Below are positions 1 through 13,340 of a stretch of DNA of 20,148 bases, piece after piece. Below the pieces are notes generated by a model. That model had not been told where the DNA came from, did no database searches, and worked only from the letters and a program-made list of their open reading frames with translations. Origin of the DNA: Wuchereria bancrofti (taxonomy: Eukaryota > Nematoda > Chromadorea > Rhabditida > Onchocercidae); assembly GCA_005281725.1 (NCBI GenBank), contig SSBO01000056.1, forward strand, positions 1 to 20,148. The letters run 5' to 3'. The position numbers and the translations under genes are program-made. Each line of letters begins with the position of its first letter. The stretch's first letter is position 1.

Positions 1-1267
1 AACTTGAATAATACCATCGTGGGTGTCAAGAGCCCTAGCGGATCGTATTGTGAAGCTATAAAGCGAAGAATGTTTCTTTTCGTTATTTCACATTCTTGCA
101 TGGCTTCTGCACGACCTTGATTACGTCTTTTTCGGGTATCCAAGTGATGCCGAGAAGCTTTATGGGCCCATCGGAAATTTTGTCTTCTTTAGGAAATTTT
201 GTCATTCTTCTTTCTTTCATATATTCATTGAAATTCTTATCGTTGGAGGTGAACTCTCGAATGTTCATCGCTGCATCTTTGAATATGGCTTTTGTTTTGC
301 GGTATTTATTTAGCGCCTCCTTTGTTCTTTCGGCTGCTATTAAAACGTTATGAACGTATAAGTTTTTCCTGATTTCTAATGCCGTTCTATTGCCAATAGT
401 CTCTAGGTGATGGTTCAGCGTGGCTGATAAGAAGAAGGGTGAAGCCACAATTCCAAATAGTACTCTCTTAAACCGATAGCTTGTAATGTTTTCTTCGCTG
501 AGAGGTTTTTTCGCGTCCTTTATCCATAGGAATCTTGTACAGTTTCTTTCGTTTGGGTGTAGTTCTAGTTGTAGAAAAGGCTTTTCCACATCCGCAACTA
601 CAGCTATCTTCATCGTACGAAATGGGAAAAGTATTCCGACTAAGTCGGGAAGTATTATGGATCCTTTATACATGACATCGTTCAGGCTTCTTATTCCTTT
701 GAGATGCGTTGAGGCATCGTGGACGATTCTCAGTTTGGGTTTGTGCGGAGCTATAACTTTGTGATGTGGAAGATAGTGAATAATCTCTTCCTCATCCATT
801 TCTGGAGACACTTGTTCAATTATGTTTTGCCTCACCTGGTCTTGAATGGTTTCATCGTATTGGCAGAATAATGCTTTGTTATTTTTGAGCCTGTTTACCA
901 ATGCTTTCAAGCGTTCGTAACATAAGCCGTAGTGACTCACCAACGTATTCTTCGATTCTTTCCATGGCTATCCTTTTAAGGCTTGTTCATCATCGTCTTC
1001 ACGTGGCTTGTCAAGCACTCCTATGAGTTCGAGTCTCCAGAACCGGTCAATATCCTGATTGTCTGATTTGTTGTTCGTGCGGGCTATAACCGTCTGGACT
1101 GCTACTTCATCTGTGCGATTAGCTTCATTAACATAACCGCTACCACTCAACATCTGTCCCATCTTTGTTTCATACAGTATGAATCCAGATTCTAATCTTT
1201 CGTTTGGTTCCAGTCGATAAGATTTCCTAGGTAATCGTTGCCGAGTAGTATATCGGGTTTCTTGCAA
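1..1267 (-). pseudogene. BEL/Pao reverse transcriptase region, broken and partial
   Basis: In an active element this would copy element RNA into DNA. From about 1200 down to 83 one frame reads the protease-RT linker (FWRLELIGV) and then RT, interrupted by one in-frame TAG at 968-970. About twenty residues that the plus-strand relative has at this point are absent. RT landmarks seen are LRIVHDAS, the first catalytic block VVADVEK and SYRFKRVLFG. The second catalytic block, normally YVDD, reads YVHN (347-358), so both aspartates are lost. The frame stops at 83-85; RT/RNase H connection sequence ([11 protein letters not shown]) continues in another frame to the window edge, which indicates a frameshift near 83-90. 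Identity as BEL/Pao RT is confident; it cannot be active. Confidence 0.9.
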
Positions 1268-2291: not shown

Positions 2292-3128
2292 TCAGAGTAT
2301 TCTTTCAATCGTTTTGATGTTAGTTCTCCAGCCTCGATCGTTCTTCTTGATGGAGAAGAGGTCATTGTATAGCAGACTCATGATCATATACGTGTCACCG
2401 TATTTCTCCATTAGTATCTCTCGGATGAGATTGTAATTTTCTGGTGATACCTCGTATCCCTTTATTGCTTCTAATGCATCCCGTTTTAAACACGAAAGGA
2501 AATAATTGAATTTTTGGATGTCTGGGAGATTCTGGTTGTGAACTGCTGACTCGAATCCACTCCAGAAGGTTCTCCATTCACGTGGATCTCCGTTGAATGT
2601 TGACAATTGCAGCTGAGGCAATTTCACCGCCGCGATACTGTTTGCTTGGAGGTTTGCCGCGCTTCCTTGTCTCGACAGTTTGGTACTGCTGTCCCGATCT
2701 GATCTGTATTTGTGTATATTTTCCGAGTGTTGGATTAGATCGGTTATTTCATCTCTGTATTTGTTTAAAGTGGTTATTGCTTTCGTCCCTCGACTCATCA
2801 AATTCACAATTCCGTCCTCGTCTTCTACCATTTCTGCATATTTCTTCCAGTCTTCTTCTTGTTGTTGGGAGAAGTATTTCGAAGGATGAACTCTTTCAAT
2901 TCTTTGTCCACGTCCTCCAGCCTACGTACATATATCCTGTCTATCATTTCATTCAATCCTGTCTATCATTTCATTGATATCGCTTCTTTTCTCCTTGCAT
3001 TGCTTATGCATTTCTTCGTAATTTAATTGGTCATCGATGGGTTGCGTCTCCAATCCCTTTATCTCTTCGAAGGCTTCTAGTATTTCTTTTTTCGCCGGGT
3101 TTGCGCTCAAAACTGTCGCAAACGCCAT
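2292..3128 (-). pseudogene. BEL/Pao gag (DUF1759 type), broken
   Basis: Gag would form the particle that packages element RNA. The likely ATG is at 3128 (protein begins MAFATVLSANPAKK), chosen because a longer frame starts only with a TTG inside the primer-binding site. The first piece stops after NEMIDRIE because of a 22-bp tandem duplication (2934-2977). The second piece (2831-2292) holds the diagnostic core: LPQLQLSTFNGDPREWRTFW, then FNYFLSCLKRDALEAIKGYE, a DUF1759 pattern. It stops near 2292. The C-terminal gag/zinc-knuckle frame starts only at 2249, implying another frameshift between. The family call is secure. The coding sequence is a pseudogene. Confidence 0.9.
2934..2977. repeat. 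22-bp tandem duplication inside gag
   Basis: Two adjacent 22-base units (2934-2955 and 2956-2977) share an identical 20-base core, cctgtctatcatttcatt plus its preceding bases, and differ at one base near the end. Since 22 is not a multiple of three, the second copy shifts the minus-strand gag frame and brings a stop codon directly after it. Seen directly in the sequence. Confidence 0.9.
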
Positions 3129-3145
3129 CCCGGCTCGTGGCACCA
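3128..3145 (-). promoter_or_regulatory. Primer-binding site of the minus-strand retroelement
   Basis: On the minus strand this 18-mer begins TGGTGCCACGAG, the TGG start expected of a site pairing with the CCA end of a tRNA. It lies eight bases after the LTR end (..GCGACA). It directly abuts and overlaps by one base the gag ATG. The primer tRNA was not identified. Confidence 0.7.
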
Positions 3146-3178
3146 ACTTATTCTGTCGCGAAATTTTGAATTTGATGC

Positions 3179-3184
3179 TTTATT
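3179..3184 (-). terminator. AATAAA polyadenylation signal in the LTR
   Basis: AATAAA on the minus strand, 10 bases downstream of the end of SL1. If transcription starts at SL1, this signal lies in the LTR R region, as needed for 3' processing of element RNA. Confidence 0.6.
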
Positions 3185-3193
3185 GCTAATTAC

Positions 3194-3215
3194 CTCAAAC
3201 TTGGGTAATTAAACC
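3194..3215 (-). promoter_or_regulatory. Exact 22-nt SL1 spliced-leader sequence inside the LTR
   Basis: On the minus strand these 22 bases begin GGTTTAATTACCC and end AAGTTTGAG, identical over all 22 positions to the nematode SL1 leader. They are followed by GTAATT, so SL1 is followed by GT as in the SL RNA donor. Thirty bases upstream is a TATA-like box. This is not an SL RNA gene: the rest of the SL RNA (Sm site and stem-loops) is absent. The likely role is the start of the LTR R region, so element RNA would begin with SL1; that role is inferred. Confidence 0.93.
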
Positions 3216-3236
3216 ACAAATTTTAAAACACAAAAA

Positions 3237-3246
3237 TTAATATAAA
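3237..3246 (-). promoter_or_regulatory. TATA-like box upstream of the SL1 start
   Basis: TTTATATTAA on the minus strand, with the TATA core beginning 29 bases before the first G of SL1. The spacing is that expected of a TATA box for a transcript starting at the SL1 5' end. Short AT-rich motifs are common in this DNA, so support comes mainly from the spacing. Confidence 0.45.
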
Positions 3247-3576
3247 TCACTTGAGGATACAACTCTTTAGTATAAATTAACAGTATAACATAAGCGGATA
3301 AAGCTAAAGCGTTTTAGAACCCTTGACCCAACCAAACCATATAAGAAAGAAAAACTATAATAATGATTTAGTAAGGAAGTAGGGAGGGATTACTGGATGA
3401 TTTGGAGAACAAGAAGATTAAAAGTCAGTTAATACAGTAATGTAAATGTATAAGGAGATTTAATTTAAAACAAAGAAAGTGTTAACATAAATTGTTAGCC
3501 TTTAGCTACACATTCTTAATTTTACAACCTTGTACATATCACTGTAATTTTATCATCTTTGTTCGCCTTTAGCAAC

Positions 3577-3593
3577 ACTTGGGTAATTAAACC
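3577..3593 (-). repeat. Second, partial SL1 copy (first 17 nt)
   Basis: On the minus strand 17 bases, GGTTTAATTACCCAAGT, match the start of SL1 exactly; the sequence then departs (GTTGC..). It lies 378 bases upstream of the complete copy, in the same orientation. It sits next to a roughly 70-base diverged duplication (gcctttagc motifs near 3500 and 3571). It may be the R start of an older LTR fragment. Confidence 0.75.
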
Positions 3594-4181: not shown

Positions 4182-4754
4182 ATGAGTGCTGGCATTAGAA
4201 AAACAGCTCAAGGAACAGCAGAAAAGCTGCAGGAATTAATTGTGGTCATCCCTCCCTGAATGGAACCACCAGAGAACAGTACCGCACTGGAAACACGACA
4301 ACTTTATGATACCTAACTCAAAAAAGTACAGGACCTAAAGCGCAGAATTAAAGACAGCGTACAGTGCTTCCAACAAAAAGAACAAAGATGGGGAGATATT
4401 ATGGACACTATGGAAAAAGAACAACTAAAGAAGAAGGAACAACTGTATGAAGAGGCCCAAAAAGAAGGTTTTCTACACACACTAGAAATCGGACGACATG
4501 GATTGTTTACGCTAATTTCAAACGTACAACGACTGGAACAAGCTATACAAACCATTGATATGGAAATAGACAGCATAGAATCTCCAACTCCAGTTCCAAC
4601 TGCACCACTTGTCGGTCAAATCCAACTTCCAAAAATGGAAATGAAGACTTTTGATGGCACTCTTACTGCATGACCAGTATTCTGGGATTGGTTCCGAACC
4701 GCCGTATGATCAACCAATCCCTCCGCTAAACAAACGTACCTTCGGGGCTGTCTT
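4182..4754 (+). pseudogene. BEL/Pao gag, N-terminal and middle part, with in-frame stops
   Basis: The ATG at 4182 opens MSAGIRKTAQGTAEKLQELI. The same frame then runs on, interrupted by TGA 4257, TAA 4314, TGA 4671 and TGA 4707, and is continuous with the long open frame starting at 4755. Between the stops lie a charged, coiled-coil-like stretch (KEQLKKKEQLYEEAQKEG) and the start of the DUF1759 core (LPKMEMKTFDG, then FWDWFRTAV). No insertions or deletions are needed to stay in frame: the damage seen here is point stops only. The product would be the particle protein of the element. Confidence 0.85.
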
Positions 4755-6590
4755 GTGGGAGCAGCAGCCTCACTCATAGAACCCTACGTGCTACGGACCC
4801 AGAATTATGAAGTAGTTCTCGCAGCACTAAAAAAGCGATATGAACGGCCGGCAGCAATCAAACAAGCTCTATACAGAGAACTAGAAAGATTGCCTAGAGC
4901 GAAAGAAGGTAATCTACGAACCACTATAGAAGCTATTGATCGAATAATAGAATTACTCGGATTCCAAGGGGAAGATGTTAATTCAACTCTTATAATCTAT
5001 CTCATAAAACAAAAGCTTCCAAAGTCCATATTGGAGAAAATAGAATACGAGAAATCTGAATGGACAGTACCCACCTTAAGAGATCGCCTAGCAACCTTTG
5101 TTATTGCTGAAGAAAATGTGGCAAGTATATTAGGCTATGCCTCAAAAGAATCATACAGTCCGCATTGGGACACAATGGAGATGTCAAAACTGACATCAGC
5201 ACTACCAACGATCAACACGAAACATAATCTCCCGGCAAGAAAAAATGAAGCAACCTTAACGCACCCACCTAGAACGAACAGAAGGTGTTCGTTCTGCACA
5301 AAACCACATCGTACTCATGAATGCCGAAAATTTTCTACACCTGATGAACGCTCGAAACGAGTGGTAGAACTAAAATTATGTTTTTTGTGCTTGAAAGAAG
5401 GACATAGATCAAAAGATTGCAAAGCTTCACAGTGCTTCAAATGCGGGCGAAGACACCATCCGGCATTATGCTCACCTGCAAACAACACGGACAATAAAGT
5501 TACGAAGAACACACCAGTAAATCAAACAACAATCCACCTTGCAACGACAGAAACTAATGCAACATTCGCAAATATCAGAACATCTCCCAATAACCTTACG
5601 CCATTGTGGTGTATAGAAGGATTTGCCAGTAACCCACGAAATCACCATAATAGTAAAAAAGTAATGGTACTCCTGGATACAGGCAGCGAAAGATCTTATA
5701 TCACAAAAAATCTCGCACAGACATTAAAAATGACTGACAGTCAGCACGAGACACTGTCAGTTGGACCTTTCGCAGCAACAAAACCAATCACAATGGAAAC
5801 CAGACGACTTCAGGTCGTCCTTGAAAGCCAGGATCGCCAAACCAAAGAAGTAGTAACCGTCAACACAGTTCCTAGGATCTTACACCGCCCGCTACAATAC
5901 GCCAAAATAAAAATGAATGTAAGACAACGACATGATATCCAAACAGCGTTACAGGAACCTGAATTACTTTTGGGGGCAGATGTCATTTCAAGAATTCTCC
6001 TACCCCAAACAACTCTTCGCCAAGGCAATTTTATTATAATTGCGACAACACTAGGTCAAATAGTAACGCGAGCAGAACCGCCACAATCAATCGACAGCAA
6101 CGTCTGCACGGTAACAGTGGACCCCGTCGAAACATTTTGGAACCTTGAACTGATGGGAATCAAGGAAGACGAAGTCAAAGAAGAAGATATCATAGCTCAG
6201 GAACATTTTGACCGAAATGTCCACACTAATGAAGAAGGAAGAATAGTGGTAAGCTTTCCCTGGAGACCAAAGCAGGATAATTTGCGCCCACTATCAGACA
6301 ATTTTGCACTCTCGTCCGCAAGACTTTACTCCCGGAACAAATTACAATCAAAACCCGAATTAATTTCGCGGTACCATCAGACCATTCAAAACCATATCGC
6401 GAATGGAATAATAGAACCCACAATGTGCCAACACAACAACGAGTATTTCTTCCTGCACCAACCGATTTGGAATGAGAACAATATTTCAACCAAATTACGT
6501 GTTGTCTTTGATGCAAGTGCGAAGCTACAAAAACAGTCAAGCTTAAATGAATATATTTTACGTGGACCCGAATATCGAACTAGAAGATGA
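4755..6590 (+). pseudogene. BEL/Pao gag core, zinc knuckles, protease and truncated RT
   Basis: This 611-codon open stretch continues the gag frame from 4182, so its first Met is not the real start. Residues 1-125 are the rest of DUF1759 (YERPAAIKQALYRELERLP). Three zinc knuckles start at about residues 178 (CSFC), 209 (CFLC) and 227 (CFKC). The retropepsin has an intact LLDTGS (Asp about 308) and LLLGAD (about 405-409). A linker with FWNLELMGIKEDE leads to the RT N-terminus with LRVVFDASA near 580. The frame then breaks at a deletion junction near 6565-6572, before either catalytic RT block. Unlike the minus copy, protease active-site residues are preserved. It cannot make a working RT or integrase. 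Confidence 0.9.
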
Positions 6591-6657: not shown

Positions 6658-6965
6658 GAACAGACTGATAACAAGTCCAGTCATTTTGTTTGCTGCTTTT
6701 CTCGAGTCGGGAGTGCCGCCACAATGGCGGAGCTATAACGTAGTGAACAAAGATTATTGTTTTAAGTGATTTTAATCCGCTTTGTAACCTTAACATCCAT
6801 AAAATCCCTCCCAATTTTCTTCCTTACAAAGTCATTCATTATAGTTTCTTGTTTTGGTATGGCTCGGTTGGGAGGTGTCTAGCTTGCTTATATCTTTAAA
6901 TTATATTTGTATGTTATGTATCAATTCGTTATTGTAATGCTGTATAATTTTTAATGTTAATCTGT

Positions 6966-6987
6966 GGTTTAATTACTCAAGTTTGAG
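6966..6987 (+). promoter_or_regulatory. SL1 spliced-leader sequence in the LTR (21 of 22 bases)
   Basis: Begins GGTTTAATTACTC and ends AAGTTTGAG; the only difference from SL1 is C to T at leader position 12. It is followed by GTTTGA, so the GAG|GT junction is kept. A TATAAT lies 23 bases upstream (6943-6948) and AATAAA starts 9 bases downstream. The location within the LTR matches the minus-strand copy, so SL1 belongs to the LTR family and is not a chance insertion in one copy. Confidence 0.92.
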
Positions 6988-6995
6988 GTTTGAAT

Positions 6996-7001
6996 AATAA
7001 A
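6996..7001 (+). terminator. AATAAA polyadenylation signal in the LTR
   Basis: AATAAA just downstream of SL1, in the same relative position as in the minus-strand LTR. Confidence 0.6.
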
Positions 7002-7017
7002 GTATTTCACAAAGACT

Positions 7018-12569: not shown

Positions 12570-13340
12570 GTCAATCGCAGACTTTTGGTAGCAGATTTCA
12601 CAATTTTTACTTTCTACTCAAATAGAGATTTTATTCTCATCAAAATTCCTGAACTTTTAACGTTTTATTAAGTAGACGGAGATTAACAGTGGTGTTATCA
12701 ACGTATGCTTACTTATAGTACGCTTTTGCTTTTAATGTTTTTTCATAATTTGGTCGAAAAGTGGTGTTAATGTTTACTTTTAATTGATATTTAATAATAA
12801 TTAGAACATAATGAGGAATCATTTACAAATACATGATCGGAACATAATCATAATCATAGTAAAATAATCATAATCATGGAATATAATCATAATCAGTAGT
12901 TCCGGCAATCTTTTCTTGTGCTGTTAGCGCAATAATTATGAGCCTAATGTGCCTTTCATTGTGGATTACAATTACTTTAATCAATAGCATCAAAAGAAAA
13001 CGTAAGCATAAATAATTTCAGAAGATCTCAATCGGAGATACCAGATTGTATTTGCTGTATTTTCTTTTTGGTTGCATATTTCACTTTTTACACTTCTGCT
13101 TAGTTAGGATTGAATATTTTTGTTATTAGCGTTAAAAGTTTCTATATAACTTTTCACATATTCTTTCAAAAATATACTTTCTACAAGAAGCAAAAACGTA
13201 CTATGCAACAGGTATACGTTGATAACACTTTTATCAATCTCCTTATGACTTAATAAAACGTTAAAAGTTCAGGAATTTTGATGAGAATAAAATCTTTATT
13301 TGGGTAGAAAGTAAAAAATTTGAAGTCTGTGACTGCAACT
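12570..13340. mobile_element. Foldback or MITE-like element with long terminal inverted repeats
   Basis: Left arm about 12592-12733 and right arm about 13186-13330 are inverted copies of each other. A 48-base block is identical between 12626-12673 and the complement of 13248-13295 (starts AGATTTTATTCTCATC on the left). Similarity extends inward through GTGTTATCAACGTAT and TAGTACG, and more weakly outward through CAGACTT. The roughly 450-base interior has no transposase-like frame. A TA on each side (12568-12569 and 13341-13342) would fit a Tc1/mariner-type insertion, but TA is too common here to count as proof. Non-autonomous DNA transposon is the likeliest reading. Confidence 0.75.
12844..12896. 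repeat. ATAATCATAATCA short tandem repeat
   Basis: Three imperfect units of about 20 bases, each starting ATAATCATAATCA, lie inside the inverted-repeat element. Confidence 0.8.

Follow-up and report, generated by a model that had tools for sequence, protein, structure and literature searches.

SL1 spliced-leader sequence within LTRs of BEL/Pao-type retrotransposons in a nematode genome: a likely start of the R region

The association of the spliced leader SL1 with Pao-type retrotransposons is partly known, and the data presented here agree with it. In Brugia malayi, 316 SL1 sequences have been counted, 120 of them outside SL RNA genes; 60 of these 120 lie within 1 kb of a PAO element, and occasionally two same-strand SL1 copies flank one PAO element (Foster et al. 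2020, PMC7181701). The 22-mer and the element class are the same as in the locus described below. In the passages of that paper that deal with these sites, SL1 is called “flanking” and is ascribed to past trans-splicing, while its position within the LTR, a role as R, the shuffling of U3 and U5 halves, and shared variants are not described there. The Gypsy/Ty3 element Cer1 of C. elegans (PMC3315495) is alike in that the element mRNA bears SL1, but in the account given there the leader is trans-spliced onto a spliced mRNA at an internal acceptor, unlike the LTR-encoded SL1 considered here. The BEL/Pao elements Tas of Ascaris and Cer7 of C. elegans share with the present elements the peptidase A17, reverse transcriptase, integrase, and LTR architecture; the domains and phylogeny of nematode BEL/Pao elements are among the subjects of PMC554778. 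The first-pass annotation had suggested an SL-like stretch in the LTR of Tas; the passages and paper listings consulted here gave neither an LTR sequence nor an SL stretch for that element. Nematode SL1 RNA genes (RF00198) contain the same 22-base exon, and the LTR under study shares the next six bases with them as well; these genes, however, encode a full SL RNA, whereas neither the window nor nine scanned LTR loci give an Rfam SL1 match. No description of SL1 in LTRs, whether as R or as a junction, was found in the searchable part of the openly licensed literature, and the LTR placement, the modularity, and the R role of SL1 are new as far as searched.

The window, i.e., the whole stretch of 20,148 nucleotides that was analysed, carries the following features of one element, which belongs to a family designated h:

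3154..3577, minus strand: 5′ LTR of the window's BEL/Pao element (family h), with the ends TGTTGC...GCGACA read directly
3240..3246, minus strand: TATA-like box (TTTATAT; one mismatch to TATAWAW) that starts 31 bases upstream of SL1
3194..3215, minus strand: exact SL1 (22/22), predicted start of R
3188..3193, minus strand: GTAATT directly 3′ of SL1, the same as intron bases 1–6 of the SL RNA gene in this genome
3179..3184, minus strand: poly(A) signal AATAAA, 9 bases after SL1
3128..3145, minus strand: predicted primer binding site TGGTGCCACGAGCCGGGA, starting with TGGTGCC, 48 bases after SL1
2295..2918, minus strand: gag-region frame of the window's element (DUF1759, PF03564; E 9.6e-23)
83..964, minus strand: reverse transcriptase frame (RVT_1) of the window's element (E 8.4e-06; a score of 26.1 bits against a Pfam cut-off of 29.6)

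The LTR is 424 bp long, read on the minus strand from 3577 to 3154, and SL1 occupies its bases 363–384, with 40 bases from SL1 to the LTR end. The match noticed by the first-pass annotation is confirmed as an exact one (22/22, 3194–3215, minus strand); none of 100 shuffled versions of the window had a match with up to three mismatches, i.e., a chance expectation of 0.00. The annotation had also placed SL1 just before AATAAA, 29 bases after a TATA-like box, and outside any SL RNA body. These statements hold: AATAAA lies at 3184–3179 on the minus strand, TATAT within TTTATAT starts 29 bases upstream of SL1 (such a box being weak evidence in AT-rich DNA), and the window has no Rfam match to SL RNA, while three genuine SL1 RNA genes of this genome (L055, L056, and L085), which serve as positive controls, score 112–123 bits. 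An SL RNA pseudogene as the identity of the LTR SL1 is ruled out by Rfam.

The window's own element runs off the contig start, with one LTR only in the window, and its domains are limited to the gag DUF1759 and the sub-threshold RVT_1. Its candidate primer binding site starts with TGGTGCC; no primer tRNA was matched to it. The nearest named relatives of the reverse transcriptase frame are filarial reverse transcriptase and Pao proteins, the best seven being 51–57% identical and coming from Onchocerca, Dirofilaria, Brugia, and Loa. One SL1 RNA gene (L056, 865–1225) lies on the same strand as a 5S rRNA gene and ~165 bases downstream of it, a linkage typical of filarial worms; by both features, the genome is likely that of a filarial worm.

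The 22-mer of the window is, with a probability of roughly 0.6, an LTR-encoded copy of the host SL1 in a BEL/Pao element that likely supplies the first bases of the R region. The presence of SL1 in BEL/Pao-type LTRs is itself real and widespread and concerns many families. The genome (86.5 Mb, 108 contigs) has 330 SL1 sites with 0–1 mismatch, and the reversed pattern used as a control gave 0. SL RNA genes occupy about six places, five matching SL1 plus 20 bases of the body (≤3 mismatches) and one being the variant L055, although this count would be lowered by collapsed gene arrays in the assembly. Among 92 distinct SL1 contexts (≤2 mismatches, in the loci fetched by then), 87 fall into five multi-copy groups by upstream sequence, one group of three members representing the second SL1 of tandem LTRs; 3 contexts are SL RNA genes, 1 is the window LTR, and 1 stands alone. 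No SL1 was found in viral contigs.

Two complete elements provide the structural context. The first, L031 (type d), has 398-bp LTRs that are 99.5% identical, with TG...CA ends and a 5-bp GTAAC target duplication; only 11 bases separate its SL1 from the LTR end. The LTRs of the second, L032, are ~435 bp long and 100% identical, and its frames match DUF1759, Peptidase_A17, RVT_1, DUF1758, Integrase_H2C2, and DUF5641 above the cut-off and the integrase core rve below it, so that the A17 peptidase, reverse transcriptase, aspartic protease, and integrase of a BEL/Pao element are all represented. SL1 is exact in both LTRs of either element and stands at the same place in both, as the start of R must. 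The remaining loci are called LTRs by similarity to such repeats. Between its identical LTRs, L032 (1635–7157) has three long frames in one reading frame with single stops between them. The A-type LTR regions L035, L039, L042, and L043 contain an 83–84-bp unit in tandem copies.

Exact SL1 was the bait for most loci, and its exactness across families is therefore partly chosen; samples anchored in the flank were added for this reason. The first-pass annotation had counted absence of SL1 from other family members against its reading, and the opposite is found. The U3 of the window family has 19 matches in the genome, 12 of which reach the U3 end (11 beyond the window), and SL1 follows in all 12, exactly in seven and with one change in five. 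Two pairs among the seven exact copies are identical to each other, and the five single changes are all different. In the A family, 20 newly fetched loci of 40 main U3 matches carry SL1, exact in 15 and with 1–2 changes in 5; the other matches were in hand via SL1 itself, lay in the window, or were not fetched. In the B family, likewise 20 newly fetched of 40 U3 matches, SL1 is exact in 8 (one base-shifted), altered in 11 by substitutions, an SL1-CACGACA fusion (three), or an insertion (two), and incomplete (N) in 1; five of the 40 matches were not fetched, four of them ending 15–82 bases before the U3 end.

The two sides of SL1 appear to have been exchanged between families. When 150 bases of U3 and the 40 bases that follow SL1 are compared (shuffled identity 44–55%), types b, c, d, and c2h are pairwise 85–95% identical in U3 but only 44–63% identical after SL1, the highest of the latter values belonging to c versus c2h, whose first bases are alike, and the LTR of type d covering only the first 11 of the 40 compared bases, with flank for the remainder. 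D-type LTRs follow the same pattern (92–94% versus 51–56%). The reverse case is provided by six chosen pairs, four of which include a tandem-SL1 LTR: they are 81–100% identical over 11–40 bases after SL1 and 44–55% identical upstream, where shuffling gives means of 48–53% and maxima of 53–59%. Moreover, ten U3 representatives, each with SL1 at 22/22, form three groups without detectable mutual similarity (E 0.001). Pieces 64–88% identical connect types a, b, c, d, d2, f, g, and i with one another, directly or stepwise, while neither the window U3 nor the D-type U3 matches any other representative at E 0.001. Given three U3 groups without detectable similarity and the observed switches, SL1 is the single stretch shared by all representatives and the probable site of half exchange. 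Such a modular junction fits SL1 as the start or most of R, with U5 possibly exchanged through SL1-only homology.

LTRs at six loci (L038, L044, L052, L020, L027, and L030) contain two SL1 copies each, 54 or ~122 bases apart, the second one preceded by GG or GGG, as if a cDNA had passed from the 5′ end of one SL1 to a different RNA. Apart from these G runs, an extra G at the U3/SL1 boundary, which might derive from the cap, was seen in one copy (L080); a genome-wide check for it listed 13 places, without their letters, at least two of which are ordinary E-type LTRs (L018 and L073).

In most sites, the placement of poly(A) signals is what would be expected if R were located at SL1. Of 87 exact sites outside SL RNA genes, 47 have an AATAAA that immediately precedes SL1 (in one case with a single extra base in between), and 23 have one that starts 4–14 bases after it, the distance being 8 bases in 20 of the 23 and 9 in the window. 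The remaining 17, which speak against this reading, have no AATAAA between 60 bases before and 70 bases after the SL1 end; these sites comprise types e and f, tandem second copies, type d with an E/F-type U3, one c2 with a B-type U3, and two c2 with a D-type U3. The placement of AATAAA fits an RNA that would begin at SL1 and end in or just past it. Since the type d LTR ends 11 bases after SL1, an R starting at SL1 cannot exceed 33 bases there. Retroposed poly(A) copies, which could map the RNA 3′ end, were sought for B-type LTRs only, and none were found.

The proposal of the annotation that SL1 begins R thus finds support in the expected position and in family-wide retention, but not in promoter spacing, as TATA-like boxes keep no fixed distance across 13 LTR junctions: TATAWAW occurs with 0–1 mismatch in eight, starting 25 to 50 bases upstream, and only with 2–3 mismatches in five (types e, c2, e2, h2, and i). 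Its other proposal, a copy of exactly 22 bases, stands as regards the 22/22 match, but the limit of the copy is blurred, because base 24 is T in 12 of the 13 junctions, a regularity not expected of a block that stops at base 22, and because the match of the window family is six bases longer in 8 of 12 copies.

The mechanism suggested by these data is as follows. Transcription would start at the first base of SL1, so that element RNA would begin with SL1 without trans-splicing, its 5′ end resembling that of an ordinary trans-spliced worm mRNA, which is the likely benefit. R would consist of SL1 first and, in some families, mostly of SL1, and the RNA 3′ end would fall in or just after SL1. SL1 could then serve as the common homology in first-strand transfer, and strong-stop cDNA of one family might pair, through SL1 only, with the 3′ SL1 of a different family, thereby swapping U5. 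An extension of this scheme, which we put forward tentatively and consider possible rather than probable, is that the host leader acts as the shared R of a whole retrotransposon community, in which any element RNA that begins with SL1, whether encoded or trans-spliced, primes on the 3′ SL1 of any family. If so, SL1 would be a recombination currency reassorting LTR halves, and new U5s would be recruitable even from families without SL1. If the reading of SL1 as an encoded leader is true, the elements bypass or exploit trans-splicing, they offer a natural test of the role of SL1 for an mRNA, and the swapping of LTR halves through 22 bases is explained; besides, RNA sequencing anchored on SL1 could, in such worms, mistake LTR transcripts for those of trans-spliced genes.

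The strongest competing view, unlikely in our estimate, is that host trans-splicing adds SL1 anew in each cycle and reverse transcription then renews the SL1 of the LTR. It would account for exact 22-base copies with unrelated sequence behind them, and it accords with the interpretation offered in the SL1 passages of Foster et al. 2020 (PMC7181701), where SL1 near PAO elements represents leaders once added to expressed RNA and then integrated. However, the junction has no CAG-type acceptor, only SL1's own GAG preceding the downstream sequence, so that no canonical 3′ splice site is seen. Variants shared between copies speak to the same question. In the young A family (71 sites matching a 60-base junction pattern with up to 3 mismatches, tallied by eye), SL1 is exact in 59, and there are 15 changes in the 22 SL1 columns versus 15 in 38 flank columns; SL1 is kept no better than its flanks, which means that standing copies decay without protection, a point against the preferred reading as well. 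The change CCAAAG is common to three A copies on C3, C9, and C12, two of which also have a GAC change. If these copies are separate insertions and not products of segmental duplication, a possible alternative, SL1 was copied from the element in those cycles. The shared variants thus argue that SL1 is probably inherited from the LTR and not renewed by trans-splicing every cycle. In the B lineage (108 sites, 100 of them listed and 86 of these with letters, examined by eye), SL1 is changed in 6 of 86, badly changed SL1s being left out by a search pattern that contains SL1, and three flank variants are common to ~34, 12, and 8 sites. Exactness across distant families combined with ordinary decay within them fits either constraint on active copies or exchange with intact SL1s.

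Type i deserves separate mention in this respect, as its SL1 runs into the final 38 bases of J (L006:780–886), an LTR-like family whose own copies are without SL1, an arrangement that re-addition by the host would explain. Nevertheless, none of the J copies seen (letters from three) has an AG at the corresponding place, and an origin of type i by canonical trans-splicing onto J was rejected because of this missing acceptor. A 107-base SL1-less J query matches 38 places: 26 nearly in full (~104–122 bases), 4 partially, and 8 in the last 38 bases only, at least five of these eight beside SL1 sites. Since 26 of the 38 places match nearly all of a query lacking SL1, some repeats of this kind do without SL1, which counts against a general need for it. 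At L033 and L034 (C3:9162500–9180500), type-i LTRs form two equally spaced inverted pairs, each of which encloses an 856-residue minus-strand frame, gag-protease in the one that was scanned.

It is also conceivable, although rather improbable, that SL1 is kept as an internal promoter, with a factor of the SL RNA genes binding the SL sequence and setting the start, which would be compatible with SL1 as the beginning of R. Transcription of SL RNA in Ascaris extracts requires the SL sequence itself, and the inconsistency of TATA boxes across LTR types points in the same direction. Against it, the 100 upstream bases of 13 LTR junctions and 3 SL RNA genes share few 8-mers, at least 11 bases out of register, and a promoter held in common by U3 and SL RNA genes was rejected for want of an in-register match in this set. 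A search for literature on the SL promoter found none.

A capture of R from unspliced SL RNA, with SL1 plus GT serving as a 5′ splice site that would make SL1-leader mRNAs in cis, is quite improbable. In its favour, SL1 with GTAATT in the window is identical to the start of the SL RNA gene over 28 bases (28/28), and the window family continues after SL1 with GTAATT in 8 of 12 copies, GTAACT in 2, and GTAGTT in 2. GT follows SL1 in 8 of 13 junctions, and the T at base 24 noted above is compatible with such an origin; in L032, TTTCATTCAG ends 20 bases before the first ATG after SL1. On the other hand, representatives of types e, f, g, i, and e2 have AT, CT, or TA after SL1, and the splice donor is therefore not general. 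The window's element has its first ATG after SL1 at 3128, where the predicted primer binding site ends, so SL1 before this ATG needs no splice. Finally, chance or a passive passenger sequence without function, for which the decay of A-family SL1 at the pace of its surroundings could be cited, is contradicted by the genome-wide counts (0.00 expected in the window, 0 for the reversed control in 86.5 Mb) and by SL1 in three U3 groups lacking mutual similarity, and may be practically dismissed.

Thus, an LTR-encoded SL1 at the likely start of R is the preferred reading. Other parts of the window carry further traces of SL1-bearing LTRs:

3578..3593, minus strand: bases 1–16 of the SL1 of another (D-type) LTR, cut by the insertion of the window's element
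4713..6587, plus strand: gag-protease frame (DUF1759 and DUF1758, by domain matches) upstream of an A-type LTR
6714..7008, plus strand: part of the A-type LTR, from a TGCCGC start at 6714 through SL1 and AATAAA
6966..6987, plus strand: SL1 of the A-type LTR with one change (CCC to CTC; 1 mismatch)

The left junction at 3577/3578, where the window's element sits inside the D-type SL1, occurs once in the genome with up to one mismatch. A matching right-hand junction (the LTR end followed by CCAAGTTTGAG), which may belong to the same insertion, also occurs once, on another contig (G000 C9:10786440). An integration preference for SL1 was considered and set aside: a single left and a single right junction, at up to one mismatch, give no sign of targeting. 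Farther along, the window contains an inverted repeat of 82 bases (12592–12673 and 13248–13329), whose arms are 94% complementary and 574 bases apart.
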